Assembly (NCBI RefSeq): GCF_002797815.1
Contig: NZ_PGFJ01000001.1
Coordinates: 1 to 64,000, forward strand
Reading direction: 5' to 3'
DNA length: 64,000 nucleotides
DNA from: Mucilaginibacter auburnensis
Lineage (GTDB): Bacteria > Bacteroidota > Bacteroidia > Sphingobacteriales > Sphingobacteriaceae
The notes beneath the pieces were generated by a model. The model ran no database searches. It was not told the DNA's origin and worked only from the letters and a program-made list of their open reading frames with translations. Of the stretch, positions 18,856 to 25,198 are shown in pieces. Numbering within the stretch: the stretch's first letter is position 1; each line of letters opens with the position of its first letter. The position numbers and the translations under genes were made by a program.

Positions 18856-18979
18856 ATTTATTCTATTAGGACTGGGGCTGTTACTATGTACATCTGCCTG
18901 CGGCATTTTTAAGAAAGACTGCGGCTGCCCTAAGTTTGGCAAGGTAAACACCCCTGCCAAAACAAGCAACAGGGCTTAG
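18842..18979 (+). CDS. Small Cys-rich lipoprotein, 45 residues
   Basis: The frame starts ATG at 18842 inside the end of the VanZ-like gene (14-base overlap) and ends TAG at 18977-18979. The product starts MLKSKFILLGLGLLLC and continues TSACGIFKKDCGCPKFG, so it has a hydrophobic signal, a relaxed lipobox at TSAC (Cys20), and then a CGIFKKDCGCP motif with three more cysteines after the lipidated one. Short lipoproteins with such a CGCP motif are common in Bacteroidota, as I recall. The overlap, signal peptide and Cys cluster make coding likely. Its stop overlaps the egtD stop on the other strand. Confidence 0.7.
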   Translation: MLKSKFILLGLGLLLCTSACGIFKKDCGCPKFGKVNTPAKTSNRA

Positions 18980-19950
18980 GCCAGCCACACGGCATCCATA
19001 AACCATTTTTTACTGTCAAACAGTTCGCGCACAGGCGTAAAGTTGGCTTCAAGCGCCATTTGCTCTGTTTCGGCAATAGTGAATTTCTGAGATATTTCCA
19101 TAAAGATGTACTCATCCTTTTCAAAGCGGATGACCTCATTTCCTATATGCACTGTTTGGGCTTCTGTACTTACCAGGTAGCTTTTACATGCTCCGGTTTC
19201 GGGATCGTAAGTGGCATAGTGGTCAAAATGCTCAACATTGAAGTTGGCATTTAGTTCCTTGTTAATACGCAGCAACAGGTTAAGGTTAAATCGCTTAGTG
19301 ATACCCTCCTTATCGTTATAAGCCGCCAACACCGTTTTAGGCGATTTTTTCAGATCGATGCCGATCAGCAGCATATCTCCGGGAGATAAATGCCTGTTCA
19401 ATTCTTTTATAAAACCAATGGCTTCTGGCACCGGCATGTTACCTACATTTGATCCTAAAAACATCACCACCTTGCGCCGGGTTGAAAGGCGCTCGGCCTC
19501 CTCAAGCATATTGAAGTACTCGCCGTTAAGTCCGATAATTTGCAGCCCAGGCAGGGTTTGAGGTAAAGTTTCGTTCAGGTAGCAAATTACGTTATCCGAA
19601 ATATCTATCGGCATGTACGTAAAGTCAACACCTTGCTCTAATAAATAACGCAACAGGTAAGCTGACTTCATGGCATCGCCTGCACCTAACTCGATCAAGT
19701 CAAATGGGCCGCCATCTCCGGCTATGGCTGCGGCCAGTTCGGCTGTTTTCTTAGAGAATATTTCCAGTTCGCAATTGGTAGGATAATACTCCTCGCAATT
19801 CATCAGCTCCTGGAATATCTTATCGCCGTTAGCGTCATAAAAATATTTGGATTGCAGACGCTTTGGGGTGCTTTTTAACCCATCAATAACATCGCTGTAA
19901 AATTGAGCCGTTTTGGCATCAGTTGTTTCTGTTAAGGTAGCTGTGTTCAT
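18976..19950 (-). CDS. egtD: L-histidine N-alpha-methyltransferase (EgtD)
   Basis: 324 residues, full length for EgtD. The SAM-binding motif ELGAGDAMKS is at 87-96; YFYDANGDKIFQELMNCEEYY near 36-56, YMPIDIS, VMFLGSNVGNMP and AYNDKEGITKRFNLNLL are all family blocks; FMEISQKF near the end carries the Glu and Ser that hold histidine in characterised EgtD. It trimethylates histidine to hercynine, the first step of ergothioneine synthesis. It is the last gene of a five-gene operon, 12 bases after egtB. Confidence 0.94.
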   Translation of the reverse strand: MNTATLTETTDAKTAQFYSDVIDGLKSTPKRLQSKYFYDANGDKIFQELMNCEEYYPTNCELEIFSKKTAELAAAIAGDGGPFDLIELGAGDAMKSAYLLRYLLEQGVDFTYMPIDISDNVICYLNETLPQTLPGLQIIGLNGEYFNMLEEAERLSTRRKVVMFLGSNVGNMPVPEAIGFIKELNRHLSPGDMLLIGIDLKKSPKTVLAAYNDKEGITKRFNLNLLLRINKELNANFNVEHFDHYATYDPETGACKSYLVSTEAQTVHIGNEVIRFEKDEYIFMEISQKFTIAETEQMALEANFTPVRELFDSKKWFMDAVWLA

Positions 19951-19962
19951 TTTATGTAGATG

Positions 19963-21111
19963 TTATTTGGCCAAACGTATGCCCGTAAATTGCCAGCGTA
20001 AGTTAGTTTGAAAAAAATTGCGGTAGGTTTTTCTGCTGTGGCCCGGAGATGTTACCTCTGATGCACCACGTAAAACCATTTGATTGACCATGAATTTGCC
20101 ATTGTACTCGCCAATAGCACCCGCTGCTTTGGTAAAACCCGGGTAAGGCAGGTAAGCACTTTCCGTCCACTCCCAGCGTGAGCCCCAGTTGAACTTGTCG
20201 GCTGCCGCTTCCCATTCAAATTCGGTTGGCAGGCGCATCCCTTTCCAGGCGGCATAAGCGCAAGCTTCAAAATAGCTAATGTGGCAAACCGGCTCATTCA
20301 GTTTAAGAGGCTGTAAGCCGGCGTAAGTATAATGGTGCCATTCACCGTCTATCAAATGCCAGTATAGCGGCGCTTCAACTTTGTTGTTCTTAACCCAATC
20401 CCACCCCTCAGCATGCCAGTAGCGGAAATCATGGTAACCATCGGCCTCTATAAATTCCAGATACTCTGCTGTGGAAACCAAGTTGGCGCTTATTTCATAG
20501 TTATTGAGGTAAACTTTATGTCTGTTCAGCTCATTGTCAAAGCAAAAACCGTTGCCCTCAAAACCAATTTCATAAATGCCTTCAGGCATGGTAACAAACC
20601 CAGTAGTCGTTTCCTCTATCTTATGCGCAGGATGGTTTTTATTGTACGCCGGGAAAAGCGGATTGTGGCCCAGTATGTATTTGATATCTGTAAGCAACAA
20701 CTCCTGGTGTTGTTCCTCGTGGTTAAAACCTAATACAAGCAGTTCCTTTATATCGGCAGATGGCTCTTCGCATAAAAAGTTCAACATTGCCTCATCCACA
20801 TATTCGCGGTAACGATAAATATCGGCAACAGTTGGGCGACTTAAATTACCTCTATCTGTACGGATCACGCGATTGCCTACGGTTTCATAGTAACTGTTAA
20901 ACACGTAGTTGAACTCACTATTATATTCCTGGTAGCCCATGAAGTAAGGCTTCAATATAAATGTTTCAAAAAACCAGGTTGTATGCCCTAAATGCCACTT
21001 AGGCGGACTCACATCTACAACCGGCTGCACCACATAATCCTCCGTTTGAAGGTGGCTGCAAATGGATTCGGTGAGCTTACGCGTGTTAAGGTAACGGTCT
21101 TTTAAATTCAT
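19963..21111 (-). CDS. egtB: Ergothioneine biosynthesis sulfoxide synthase (EgtB)
   Basis: 382 residues. An N-terminal DinB-like domain carries the iron ligands: His43 in HLGHTTWFFET and His131/His135 in HEEQHQE, the spacing known for EgtB. The C-terminal half is an FGE-sulfatase fold (EPVCHISYFEACAYAAWKG, RLPTEFEWEAA, GHSRKTYRNFFQ ... GIRLAK). EgtB joins hercynine to a thiol substrate with oxygen, making the C-S bond of ergothioneine. No egtA, egtC or egtE is present in the window, so it may use cysteine directly or rely on distant genes; the sequence does not decide this. Its ATG directly follows the stop of the transporter gene. Confidence 0.93.
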   Translation of the reverse strand: MNLKDRYLNTRKLTESICSHLQTEDYVVQPVVDVSPPKWHLGHTTWFFETFILKPYFMGYQEYNSEFNYVFNSYYETVGNRVIRTDRGNLSRPTVADIYRYREYVDEAMLNFLCEEPSADIKELLVLGFNHEEQHQELLLTDIKYILGHNPLFPAYNKNHPAHKIEETTTGFVTMPEGIYEIGFEGNGFCFDNELNRHKVYLNNYEISANLVSTAEYLEFIEADGYHDFRYWHAEGWDWVKNNKVEAPLYWHLIDGEWHHYTYAGLQPLKLNEPVCHISYFEACAYAAWKGMRLPTEFEWEAAADKFNWGSRWEWTESAYLPYPGFTKAAGAIGEYNGKFMVNQMVLRGASEVTSPGHSRKTYRNFFQTNLRWQFTGIRLAK

Positions 21112-22683
21112 TTACTTTTCGTCCAGATAAAGTTTCAAATCTGATATAGTTGTAACAGCCAATTGCTGTGCTTGTTTTCGTCGCATCATTAAAGCATACG
21201 CATTGTTAAACCCTATGGGTTGTAACCATTTGATATTATAACGGTTGCTAAACTCAGTTTTAACATATTGATATGTTTTGTCCCTGTCGCCGGCCAAACT
21301 GTCAACTGTTGCTTTCGGTGCCTGCAAAATCGCTAACAAACCGGTTCCGGTATATTCGGGATAAAAATCTATTTGGTTATTGGTAAGCGCATCAAAGCAT
21401 ATTTTAGTGCCTCCTAAACCAGTTTTCGCAGATGCGGTGTAATTGGTATAACCTTCAATCAACATAGCATACATACTTGCCAAAATGTACTGTTCACCAA
21501 AAATTTTTGACCCGATGCGCACTACACCTTCCTTACCTTTTCTGGCAGGCCGCCATAGTTTATTTGCTACTAAAAAATCTTTAGCTACCTGCTCAGGACT
21601 TTGGTGAAGATAGTCTGTACGGTAGTTTAATTCCGTCATAATCTTGTCGTTTATTTTGCCGGATAACAGATTTAAAGCTTGCTCAAGTTTGGGAAATTTC
21701 CTTAAAGCGGTTTCACTTACTATCGGGGCGGCATAATAAGGTGGAAATATCTTTTTGTCATCAATCAATGTAACCAGGTCAAAAGCTTTTAGCCTGCCAT
21801 CAGTTGAATATCCGCTTATTACGTCCAGTTCCTTTTCAAACGCGGCTTTATACATTACCGCATCGCTTATAACAATAGTGTGGATCTTTAATCCATACTT
21901 GCTTTGCAAACCAAGGTTACCATCCTGCCTGCCCATAAATTCGGGGGTAAAACCGGCAGTAAGTTTGCTGCCGTACGCCGATGGCAAAAAATAAAATGAA
22001 GAGAGCAATAACACTAAAACGGGTGCTGCAATTGCAACAACCTTTACTTTTTTGAGGTTGAAGTTTTGAAGCAGGGAGAGCAAAGTATCAAAAACAATTG
22101 CCAATAAAGCAGCCGGGATAGCTCCGGCCAATATCATGTTGGTGTTGTTTAGTGATATGCCGCCGAAAATAAATTCGCCTAAACCACCTGCTGCAATGTA
22201 AGATGCCAGGGTAGCTACACCAACATTAATTACCGTGGCCGTACGCACACCTGCGAATATTACCGGCATAGCTAAGGGCAATTCAACCTTTGTTAGCACT
22301 TGCGCTTCAGTCATACCCATGGCCACCGCTGCTTCACGTACATCTGTATTAACTCCCACTATACCTGTGTATGTATTGCGGATTATAGGTAGCAAAGCAT
22401 ATAAAAACAGCGCGACAATGGCCGGTTTAGCTCCAATACCCAATACAGGTATCAGGAATCCCAATAATGCGATACTCGGTATGGTTTGCATTACTCCTGC
22501 AAAACCTAAAACAACTCCCGCCAACTGCTTTTTGCGACTGATCAATATCCCTAACGGCAGGCCAATTATGATGGCTATAATGAGTGAAACAAAGGTAAGC
22601 CCTACATGCTGCAGGGTTTGCGTTAGCAACTTATCAGCCTGTTGATGCATAAACTGCCATAATGATTGCTGTGTTTCATTCAT
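21112..22683 (-). CDS. ABC transporter permease fused to an OpuBC-type binding domain (EgtU-like); binding domain apparently permuted
   Basis: 523 residues. Residues 1-210 are a quaternary-amine-type permease with an EAA loop (REAAVAMGMTEAQVL near 117). A further membrane helix (215-234) leads to a substrate-binding domain (240-523). In OpuBC-type proteins the order is IGSK/TE start, GFNNTYA, SDL, then PEF, YSTDG, DDK.FPPY, LNY. Here the second half comes first (GFTPEFMGRQDG at 244, GYSTDGRLKAF at 291, PPYYAAP at 314, ELNYRTDY at 351), then RIGSKIFGEQYIL at 389, CFDALTNNQIDFYPEYTG at 429, GFNNAYAL at 491 and SDL at 514 end it. EgtU proteins, known ergothioneine importers, are such permease-binding fusions; the egtBD neighbours support the same substrate. 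Choline or betaine transport is the alternative. Confidence 0.86.
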   Translation of the reverse strand: MNETQQSLWQFMHQQADKLLTQTLQHVGLTFVSLIIAIIIGLPLGILISRKKQLAGVVLGFAGVMQTIPSIALLGFLIPVLGIGAKPAIVALFLYALLPIIRNTYTGIVGVNTDVREAAVAMGMTEAQVLTKVELPLAMPVIFAGVRTATVINVGVATLASYIAAGGLGEFIFGGISLNNTNMILAGAIPAALLAIVFDTLLSLLQNFNLKKVKVVAIAAPVLVLLLSSFYFLPSAYGSKLTAGFTPEFMGRQDGNLGLQSKYGLKIHTIVISDAVMYKAAFEKELDVISGYSTDGRLKAFDLVTLIDDKKIFPPYYAAPIVSETALRKFPKLEQALNLLSGKINDKIMTELNYRTDYLHQSPEQVAKDFLVANKLWRPARKGKEGVVRIGSKIFGEQYILASMYAMLIEGYTNYTASAKTGLGGTKICFDALTNNQIDFYPEYTGTGLLAILQAPKATVDSLAGDRDKTYQYVKTEFSNRYNIKWLQPIGFNNAYALMMRRKQAQQLAVTTISDLKLYLDEK

Positions 22684-23641
22684 GGCGGTAAGTTTTTACA
22701 TGCTGATAAAAAGCGGCCATCAAGTCAGCAAAGCTCAGAGTGTTTACTTGTTGGTTATGTTGATCGGTAACAGTGAGCAAATCAACGTTGTGCTGTTTGA
22801 ACAGTTCTAAAACTTGCCATACATCAGCATCCACGTCTAAATTGATGCTGCCTAAGTTATAAGCACCAAACTCAGGTACAGGTACTATTTGGAGTAATTT
22901 TACAGCTTTGAATTGTAACAGCAGGTTTTGCTCCTTTAAAAAATCAACTGCAAATTTATTGGAAGGGTTAAACAGCAGTTCGGACGGTGTACCCATTTGT
23001 ATTATGCTACCCTTGTCCATCAGGCAAACTCTGTCGCTCAGTTCAAAAGCTTCCTGCACGTCATGCGTAACCATTATTACGGTTTTGCGCTTTAGCTCGT
23101 CCAAGTTTTTAAACTCCGCCTGAATTTTAGTTCTCGTAATGGTATCTAATGCACCAAAGGGTTCGTCCATTAACAAAACAGGCGGATCTGCTGCCAGCGC
23201 ACGCGCTAAACCAACCCGTTGCTGTTGGCCACCGCTCAACTCGGCCGGGTATGCATTTAGATAATGTCTATCCAAATGCAGCTTCTCTAATAGGTTGAAG
23301 GTACGCTGCTCAATTTTTTTACTATCCCATTTAAGCATCCGGGGCACAACTGCAATATTCTCTTCAATAGTATAGTGAGGGAATAAGCCGTTATTTTGCA
23401 AAACATATCCAATCCCTTTTCTTAAATGTTCGGGCTTAATGTTTTGTATATTCTCGCCGTTTAAAAAGACACTCCCCGATGTAGGCTCAATTAAACGGTT
23501 GATCATTTTGAGCAGGGTAGTTTTACCGCATCCGCTGGTGCCTAATAAAATTATCTTTTCGCCTTGCGCAACTTCAAAAGAAACGTCGCTCACGGCTTTT
23601 AGATCACCGAATGACTTGTTTAATTTTTCAAGCTTTATCAC
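22676..23641 (-). CDS. ABC transporter ATP-binding protein (EgtV/OpuCA-like)
   Basis: 321 residues. Walker A GTSGCGKTT near residue 34, Q-loop YVLQNNGLFPHYTI, signature LSGGQQQRVGLARAL near 137, Walker B VLLMDEPFGALD near 157, and H-loop VTHD near 193. About 80 C-terminal residues form a CBS-like region (INLDVDADVWQVLELFKQHNVDLLTVTD), as in quaternary-amine and ergothioneine importers. It energises uptake through the fused permease encoded by the next gene, whose start overlaps this stop by 8 bases. The preceding reductase gene ends 9 bases before it. Confidence 0.92.
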   Translation of the reverse strand: MIKLEKLNKSFGDLKAVSDVSFEVAQGEKIILLGTSGCGKTTLLKMINRLIEPTSGSVFLNGENIQNIKPEHLRKGIGYVLQNNGLFPHYTIEENIAVVPRMLKWDSKKIEQRTFNLLEKLHLDRHYLNAYPAELSGGQQQRVGLARALAADPPVLLMDEPFGALDTITRTKIQAEFKNLDELKRKTVIMVTHDVQEAFELSDRVCLMDKGSIIQMGTPSELLFNPSNKFAVDFLKEQNLLLQFKAVKLLQIVPVPEFGAYNLGSINLDVDADVWQVLELFKQHNVDLLTVTDQHNQQVNTLSFADLMAAFYQHVKTYRHE

Positions 23642-23650
23642 CTTTATTAC

Positions 23651-25039
23651 TTACTCTTCAATAGTCATAAACAAATTATTCAGTGACTCTGAATACGATG
23701 GGTGGGCAAAAACACAGTAGCGAATCCTGTCATAAGTTACGCCGCCCTCCATAGCCATTTGTAATACCGACATAATTTCGCCACCCTCTTCCCCAAGAAC
23801 CGTAGCTCCTAATATCTTTTTTGTTTTTGTATCTACAATAGCTTTCATAAAGCCACGGGTATCGCCAACTTCAACAGCGCGGGCAACCCTGGCCATGGGC
23901 AAATGCGCTACCTTAATGTCCAATCCTTTCTTTTTAGCATCAGTTTCGCTGATGCCCACGCGGCCCATTTGCGGGTCGGTATACATGCAGTAAGGCACGG
24001 GGCGCTCATCAGTATTATAATTAGTTCCTTCTATCAAATTGCGATAAACGATGGTATAGTCGTTATATGCAATATGAGTAAACGGCGGACCGCCATTTAC
24101 GTCGCCAAGCGCATAAATGCCCGGCACATTGGTTTCTAACTTATTGTTTACTTTAATGTAGCCTTTTTTATCAATCTCTACACCTGTATTCTGCAGGTTG
24201 AGTATTTGAGTTCGTGGTGCCCTACCAACTGCTAACAACACGTGCGAACATTTAACCTTTTTTTCCTCATCACCCGTTTTAATGGTAGCGGTTATTTTAC
24301 CTTTTTCTTTTTGCTTCAACCGGATCACCTCACTCGAAAAATGAATAGCAATGGCTTCGGCCTTTAAAATTTTCTGCATTTCTACAGCAATATCTTCGTC
24401 CTCCTTACCTAACAAACGCGCTGAACGTTCAATAAGGGTAACCTTACTCCCAAATCGACGGAACATTTGCCCAAACTCCAACCCTATGTAATTGCCGCCC
24501 AACACTAACAGATGCTCGGGCACTTTATTTAATTCTAATATACTGGTTGAAGTAAGGTAATTCACCGCTTCTAAACCTTCAATTTTCGGAATAACTGTTT
24601 CCGTACCGGTATTGATAAATATCCAGCCGGCTTTTATGTGTTTGGTGCTGCTTTGCATTTTCACGGCAATAGTTTTCTCGCCGGTGAAGGATGCTTCGCC
24701 GTACAACAAATCCAATCCGCTAATTTTATCCAAAGCCTTTTCAGTACCGTTACGGGCGTTCAGCACAATATCGTCTTTGCGCTTTTTTATAAGCGCCATA
24801 TCAATCTTGTAATTTTTTACCTTTATACCTAAATGGGCACTATTGGTAACTGTCCAGGCAGCCTTGGCCGACGCTACCCATGCTTTGGTAGGCGTACATC
24901 CGTCGTTTACGCAGGTACCACCAACCCAACGTTTTTCTATAAGGGCTACCTTCTTACCGGCTTTAGCTAATTTTTTGGCTAATGGCACGCCAGCTTGTCC
25001 GGCGCCTATAATAATTGCATCGTATTGTTTAAGTTTCAT
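23651..25039 (-). CDS. FAD-dependent disulfide oxidoreductase, candidate ergothioneine-disulfide reductase
   Basis: 462 residues from the ATG at 25039 (one at 25048 adds three). FAD-binding YDAIIIGAGQAG starts the protein; the redox pair is Cys43 and Cys48 in GGTCVNDGCTPTK; the NAD(P) motif GGNYIGLEFG is near 180; IYALGDVNGGPPFTH near 310 is the second FAD motif. The dimerisation domain keeps His446 and Glu451 in HPSYSE, the acid-base dyad of glutathione-reductase-like enzymes. MerA's N-terminal metal domain and C-terminal Cys pair are absent, and no lipoamide complex genes adjoin. It leads the egt operon, so a role in reducing ergothioneine or a related low-molecular disulfide is my inference. 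Confidence 0.85.
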   Translation of the reverse strand: MKLKQYDAIIIGAGQAGVPLAKKLAKAGKKVALIEKRWVGGTCVNDGCTPTKAWVASAKAAWTVTNSAHLGIKVKNYKIDMALIKKRKDDIVLNARNGTEKALDKISGLDLLYGEASFTGEKTIAVKMQSSTKHIKAGWIFINTGTETVIPKIEGLEAVNYLTSTSILELNKVPEHLLVLGGNYIGLEFGQMFRRFGSKVTLIERSARLLGKEDEDIAVEMQKILKAEAIAIHFSSEVIRLKQKEKGKITATIKTGDEEKKVKCSHVLLAVGRAPRTQILNLQNTGVEIDKKGYIKVNNKLETNVPGIYALGDVNGGPPFTHIAYNDYTIVYRNLIEGTNYNTDERPVPYCMYTDPQMGRVGISETDAKKKGLDIKVAHLPMARVARAVEVGDTRGFMKAIVDTKTKKILGATVLGEEGGEIMSVLQMAMEGGVTYDRIRYCVFAHPSYSESLNNLFMTIEE

Positions 25040-25198
25040 AAATGGCATGGGCTAAGATATTGCATCAGAGAACTATTACGCTCCGATCAATTTATAATGA
25101 ACGGCAGCCAATTTTTGTTTTAAGTTACAATAAAACGAGGCCAGTAAAAACAATTGAAAAAAATTTTAAATAATATTTTTAAATAACCATTTATCGTA

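Follow-up and report, generated by a model that had tools for sequence, protein, structure and literature searches.

The permease/binding-domain fusion encoded on the minus strand at positions 21112-22683 of the window (the whole 64,000-nucleotide stretch of Mucilaginibacter auburnensis DNA analysed here) carries a complete PF04069 substrate-binding domain, residues 236-523 of 523, whose two halves are exchanged. The protein thus has the order TMD-B-A, where TMD is the permease, B is the C-terminal half of the domain in non-permuted relatives and A is their N-terminal half. We think it reasonably probable that the fusion represents a conserved importer of the EgtU/OpuBC lineage, with a permuted domain tethered through its lobe D2 and with ergothioneine or a close betaine, e.g., hercynine, as the most likely ligand. 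In this explanation the permutation, the predicted fold, the conserved cage residues, the gene run, the shared order and the single clade are computed, and transport and ligand of the predicted importer are what we infer. We tentatively suggest, at slightly below an even chance, that a second, independent permutation took place at the D2 loop where OpuAC is also permuted, and that it was conserved across several families of the phylum in a fused importer serving the ergothioneine pathway.

Exchanged halves of the binding domain and position of the cut

Both PF00528 and PF04069 match the open reading frame over their cut-offs. The permease (residues 12-214; 22042..22650, minus strand, as are all parts given here) is delimited by the best PF00528 stretch (41-214) and by helices in the structural model; its PF00528 score (89 bits against a cut-off of 26.4) and the adjoining ATPase gene are those of a type I ABC importer permease. 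A hydrophobic helix, residues 210-229 (21997..22056), with low pLDDT in the model, precedes the binding domain and is probably an anchor, by likeness to the helix described for OpuA (PMC11065425). The B half (residues 236-374; 21562..21978) contains YSTDG (292-296), FPPYY (PPYY at 314-317) and LNY (352-354), and the A half (residues 388-523; 21115..21522) contains IGSK (390-393), PEYTG (442-446), GFNNAYAL (491-498) and SDL (514-516); both were delimited by EgtUC and half-profile matches, and B also by structural matches. Between them, a basic linker recognized in the sequence (about residues 375-387; 21523..21561) lies in the model between the last B helix (363-373) and the first A strand (387-393), and joins the ends that are the C and N termini in non-permuted relatives. 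The motif positions agree with those of the initial annotation, and its extents have been refined to about residues 236-523 (window 21115-21978) for the domain and about 375-387 for the linker.

PF04069 (OpuAC) matches the fusion with 183.4 bits (curated cut-off 21.2) in two stretches out of order, the best of which places protein residues 238-371 on profile positions 112-255. When the profile was searched on the DNA, positions 111-255 were found at E = 8.2e-28 and positions 3-120 at E = 5.9e-25, which jointly span 3-255 of the 257 profile positions; the same type of search found no second PF04069 match at E <= 0.001 in the genome of the window. Half-profiles built solely from 12 non-permuted relatives placed A at residues 388-517 (E = 1.4e-39) and B at 242-372 (E = 2.5e-39). 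Matches of this strength put the exchange well beyond chance. The nearest solved structure by sequence, Streptococcus pneumoniae EgtUC, aligns with its halves exchanged (fusion 240-374 on chain 138-272 and fusion 385-517 on chain 6-133), so that the A-B order of S. pneumoniae-type EgtU is not found in the fusion, and EgtU/OpuBC sequences match it half by half in reverse order, not collinearly. The initial annotation had proposed a circular permutation and not a truncation, and this proposal stands; the two-lobe domain is intact in the prediction. Profile searches that expect collinear domains return two partial matches in such a case, which masks the rearrangement.

The model of the whole protein has a mean pLDDT of 84 and a pTM of 0.65 and is therefore no reliable guide to how the binding domain sits relative to the permease. 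The binding domain modelled alone with AlphaFold (236-523, from the 26-row alignment A3) reaches a pLDDT of 92.3 and a pTM of 0.88, and an intact two-lobe fold is predicted. Bacillus subtilis OpuAC (2B4M) superposes on this model nearly from end to end: over 245 aligned residues, its chain 12-272 covers model residues 2-283 of 288 at an rmsd of 3.4 and 15% identity, with Z 20.3. EgtUC (9EGI) aligns over one half only, where model residues 1-144 pair with EgtUC 363-506 at 43% identity (144 residues, Z 11.0, rmsd 2.7), and Foldseek agrees with this split. The near end-to-end match to OpuAC together with the half match to EgtUC indicates that the modelled domain is complete and that its halves are in the order of B. 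subtilis OpuAC.

In the structural alignment, fusion residue 236 aligns with residue 363 of S. pneumoniae EgtU (SpEgtU), and fusion residue 517 corresponds to EgtUC chain position 133, that is, SpEgtU 362 by the same offset. The lobes of SpEgtU are given as D1 (233-331 plus 445-506) and D2 (341-432) (PMC9732360). Because SpEgtU 362/363 falls in the D2 range, the cut maps within lobe D2 and not to the hinge, where the initial annotation had placed it; its claim that the tether has moved to the other lobe agrees with the mapped cut, which puts D2 in place of D1. By this mapping D1 is one contiguous chain in the fusion (about residues 318-486), and D2, which carries the tether, is assembled from residues of about 236-305 and about 496-520.

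Whether the moved tether has any effect is a matter of conjecture, and the mechanism we propose is as follows. The termini of non-permuted relatives, both in D1, would have been joined by a short linker, and the new termini placed in a loop within D2, which would then be linked to the permease through the hydrophobic helix. With lobes, hinge strands and aromatic cage residues retained, the domain should still trap its ligand by closing; the closed domain would then engage the permease pair and hand over its ligand as the adjacent ATPase operates. If the permutation at the D2 loop is indeed a second, independent one, this loop is a recurrent permutation site, and tethering by D2 rather than D1 is suggested to be useful. 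A permutant that is fused, conserved across families of a phylum and found alongside non-permuted relatives offers a ready experiment in which the same domain is tethered via either lobe; it bears on docking and release by fused binding domains and on permuted binding proteins as biosensors.

Distribution and descent of the permuted order

To describe how widely the permuted order is distributed, we searched genomes of the same genus, 395 genomes drawn evenly from the phylum (that of the window included) and a set of named loci. A full-length collinear relative is present in 34 of 36 same-genus genomes; of the other two, one (G015) has pieces and one (G024) has none. Among the matches listed, TMD-B-A occurs in 22 of the 395 phylum genomes (identified by a single match that covers 509 or more residues of the permuted protein), and A-B-TMD, recognized with half-profiles, occurs in 31 (loci L057-L064 and L155-L177). 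The phylum scan scored at most three candidates per genome, with the weakest matches outside the listing, and may therefore overlook second copies and TMD-A-B fusions. Within this limit none of the 53 classified phylum genomes combines TMD-B-A with A-B-TMD. All 80 named loci have the order TMD, B, A, in a single contig scan that retained the loci most similar to the permuted query and is thus biased toward the permuted order; they include Mucilaginibacter, Pedobacter, Chitinophaga, Chryseobacterium, Dyadobacter, Spirosoma and Hymenobacter. The order is therefore shared by relatives, as the same-genus genomes, the 22 phylum genomes and the best-matching named loci agree, and it is not shared by all Bacteroidota homologs, a question left by the initial annotation to which the 31 A-B-TMD genomes give the answer.

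Fusions of the order TMD-A-B were found on plasmids of Enterococcus, Leuconostoc, Levilactobacillus, Niallia, Fusobacterium, another member of the Fusobacteriota and Synechocystis. A-B-TMD fusions were also seen on plasmids of Gemmatirosa (L146) and Comamonas (L193). A junction query against plasmids matched 247 records, and the 40 listed all matched in two to three pieces spanning about 780-845 bases, the span of the non-permuted order (a permuted match would span about 480 bases). The relatives found for G281 are all in the same phylum, among the matches listed. No duplicated intermediate of the form TMD-A-B-A-B was found in the open reading frames of loci L033-L197. One TMD-B-B-A match (L125) was observed among the same open reading frames.

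The phylogeny of the permease plus the reordered binding domain was inferred from 65 rows and 468 columns, including 23 permuted representatives chosen from more than 100 and 30 A-B-TMD rows (L155, L168 and L169 were omitted for short A-half matches, and the plasmid loci L146 and L193 were added). A single branch (support 98/93) separates all 23 permuted rows from the rest, and another (100/96) does so for all 30 A-B-TMD rows; the permuted rows fall into a 35-row group with non-permuted fused and separate-subunit proteins (100/96). In the tree of the binding domain only, the permuted rows also form one clade (SH-aLRT 95). In the permease-only tree they do not, and the permuted label needs two changes, so that this tree neither shows nor excludes a single origin.

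Two other origins of the observed order have to be considered. A truncated or misassembled domain pair could merely resemble a permutation, and Pfam does report two partial matches; yet these two matches together cover nearly the whole profile, the domain modelled alone folds with high confidence, and the identical order recurs throughout the best-matching named loci and the 22 phylum genomes, which are separate assemblies. Given that the frame is open and that full-length collinear relatives exist in same-genus genomes, a truncation or assembly artefact was rejected, and we regard its probability as negligible. It is also conceivable that no separate event took place and that the fusion owes its half order to an OpuAC-type permuted protein, by inheritance or by copying. 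This would account for the same order and for ends that lie within a few residues of those of B. subtilis OpuAC. However, the fusion is only 15% identical to OpuAC, compared with 43% to the matching half of EgtUC; it has a Tyr cage and not the Trp-prism given for OpuAC (PMC2861598); and its rows group with non-permuted OpuBC/EgtU-like proteins, in a tree that holds no OpuAC-type rows. We therefore consider common descent with OpuAC improbable. Because the identity to OpuAC is so low, an independent permutation at the same loop is the simplest and most likely account, as inferred with trees that lack OpuAC-type rows.

Gene neighbourhood and ligand

The fusion gene is the third of five genes on the same strand, which by their spacing and strand form an apparent operon that includes egtB and egtD. 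The run starts with a FAD disulfide-reductase-like protein (23651..25048, minus strand; PF07992 and PF02852 over cut-off), which has CVNDGC at residue 46 and whose best NCBIfam match, NF004992, is below cut-off. After a gap of 9 nt follows an ABC ATPase (22676..23641, minus strand; PF00005 over cut-off), the likely partner of the fusion, whose best NCBIfam match is proV (314.9 bits, below the cut-off of 326.6) and whose gene overlaps that of the fusion by 8 nt (ATGAATGA). EgtB of ergothioneine biosynthesis (19963..21111, minus strand; TIGR03440, 535.9 bits against a cut-off of 360) lies directly downstream and starts at the next base after the stop of the fusion; EgtD, the histidine methyltransferase (18976..19950, minus strand), follows after 12 nt, with PF10017 over cut-off (322.5 bits) and TIGR03438 just below it (286.1 against 290.9 bits). 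The plan of EgtU-type systems, i.e., a permease fused to a binding domain plus an ATPase partner gene, is thus present. Promoter and terminator predictions in the run were no more numerous than in shuffled sequences, and we claim no transcript ends.

Flanks of at least about 3.5 kb on both sides are available for 71 named loci; among these, the ATPase adjoins the permuted gene in 70, EgtB and EgtD in 56 and the FAD protein in 45; in 13 loci only the ATPase adjoins, and in one not even the ATPase. EgtB over cut-off is found in 20 of the 22 phylum genomes with the permuted protein vs. 93 of the 373 without it (P = 5e-10, Fisher's exact test), and in 25 of the 31 A-B-TMD genomes vs. 88 of the 364 others (P = 5e-10), where both P values are inflated by kinship among genomes. 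Two of the 22 genomes have no EgtB over cut-off, and in Hymenobacter- and Spirosoma-like families EgtB is located elsewhere in the genome. At the A-B-TMD locus L062, EgtB lies directly downstream. The EgtB matches in phylum genomes are of two types, either a single stretch (2-413) or a stretch ending near 310; the latter are shorter frames such as that of the window, which continue at 341-413.

These observations point to an ergothioneine-linked import system in Bacteroidota, often with a FAD disulfide-reductase-like gene adjoining, for which we found no paper in the open-access literature. The ligand, ergothioneine or a betaine such as hercynine, would be imported or salvaged alongside the EgtD-EgtB pathway. 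If an independently permuted importer does serve this pathway, the phylum has solved one problem twice, once with TMD-B-A and once with A-B-TMD. The FAD disulfide-reductase-like protein is a candidate ergothioneine-disulfide reductase. On Enterococcus faecium and Leuconostoc plasmids, a NAD(P)/FAD-dependent oxidoreductase adjoins the EgtU-type ATPase; the Enterococcus protein is 27.6% identical to the FAD protein of the window over 468 columns, and both have a CxxxxC site. On a Rhizobium leguminosarum plasmid (NZ_CP071627.1, L195), a glycine betaine-type binding protein lies between hutH, which encodes histidine ammonia-lyase, and an ornithine cyclodeaminase-family gene, possibly a cluster for histidine-betaine breakdown.

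Most ligand contacts of SpEgtU are conserved in the 23 permuted rows: K242, T296, R379, E375, N339, Y341 and Y443 in all of them and Y419 in 22. In the fusion, the cage, carboxylate and E375 contacts are present as Y292, Y316, Y496, N494, K393, T447, R252 and E248. Three residues of SpEgtU that have been linked to its affinity for ergothioneine, G244, F293 and Y337 (PMC9732360), are replaced by F395, Y444 and F492. Among the permuted rows the G244 position is occupied by F (19 rows) or Q (4 rows), the F293 position (a cage position, with Tyr here) is Y in all 23, and the Y337 position is F in all 23. G244, F293 and Y337 are absent from all 23 permuted and all 30 A-B-TMD rows, and occur together in 4 of the 7 non-permuted TMD-A-B fusions. 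Judged by these residues the fusion falls outside EgtU proper, and it may still work in an EgtU-like manner; EgtU, the comparison offered by the initial annotation, fits in the fusion plan and in most contacts and does not fit in the EgtU-specific pocket residues. Homologs without the Y-to-F switch and G244 were suggested to bind perhaps another quaternary amine or to have relaxed specificity, and a Helicobacter pylori transporter of the wider cluster was described to import ergothioneine with lower affinity (PMC9732360). Four rows from the Chitinophaga group (L095, L102, L116 and L121; 4 of the 26 A3 rows) carry Ser where the cage has Y292, and their IGSK-type motif is followed by GDG instead of GEQ; they perhaps bind a different ligand.

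The same permuted importer might instead serve a betaine osmoprotectant such as glycine betaine, with a loose link to the adjacent egtB and egtD. The four-Tyr cage with F at the G244 and Y337 positions is that of AfProX-type glycine betaine binders as described in PMC9732360, and egtB and egtD are not adjacent in Spirosoma- and Hymenobacter-type loci. Against this stand the 56 flanked loci in which EgtB and EgtD adjoin the gene, and the presence of EgtB in nearly all phylum genomes with the permuted protein, those of Hymenobacter- and Spirosoma-like families included. An osmoprotectant role is therefore possible but the less likely of the two, and uptake of ergothioneine or a close betaine remains our preferred reading.

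Comparison with known systems

The topology itself is not unique. B. subtilis OpuAC (2B4L, 2B4M), a glycine/proline betaine binder missed by the initial annotation, has the same B-A order and is collinear with the fusion over 245 residues. A search of the open-access literature for "domain dislocation", a term applied to OpuAC, yielded no relevant paper that uses it. A 2008 paper (PMC2395249) described a circular permutation that relates 2B4L to the ProX proteins 1R9L and 1SW1. OpuAC differs from the fusion in that it is a separate lipid-anchored protein with a Trp-prism pocket (PMC2861598), whereas the fusion is joined to its permease and has a Tyr cage; no Trp-prism site is found in the fusion, where the cage positions are Tyr and Asn. 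Titles and abstracts of the open-access literature yielded no permuted EgtU- or OpuBC-type domain, and an EgtU/OpuBC-type sequence in this order was not found in print.

S. pneumoniae EgtU (EgtUC 7TXL, 9EGI), an ergothioneine importer, is also a permease fused to a binding domain; EgtUC is 45% identical to the B half of the fusion over 136 columns and shares most ligand contacts, but its half order is non-permuted and its G244, F293 and Y337 are missing from the fusion. Lactococcus lactis OpuA (7AHH, 7AHD, 3L6G) likewise has a fused design, which includes an anchoring helix and a linker of 11 residues (PMC11065425), and 7AHH is the best whole-chain structural match of the fusion (Z 23.4, 372 residues). 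The plain L. lactis OpuA architecture, first suggested by this match, was superseded: the B half of the fusion matches residues 152-244 of the 256 of 3L6G weakly (E = 0.023 and 0.092, with the unrelated SKP1 at 0.26), and by these matches the L. lactis domain seems to be non-permuted. The 44% identity and rmsd of 0.98 given for the L. lactis and B. subtilis OpuAC proteins (PMC2861598) argue for the same half order in both; 3L6G is not among the best 50 structural matches listed for the binding-domain model, an absence that proves nothing. If L. lactis OpuA is permuted, the TMD-B-A architecture has a precedent too, and what is new is confined to the sequence family.

The A-B-TMD fusions of the phylum consist of the same three parts and are likewise linked to EgtB, but their binding domain is non-permuted, precedes the permease and belongs to a separate clade. 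A natural circular permutant has also been described in Treponema, where Tp0684 (MglB-2) is membrane-tethered and tethering was suggested as the driver of the permutation; Tp0684 differs from the fusion in its type I sugar-binding fold, in a cut located elsewhere and in having no permease fused to it (PMC4990184).
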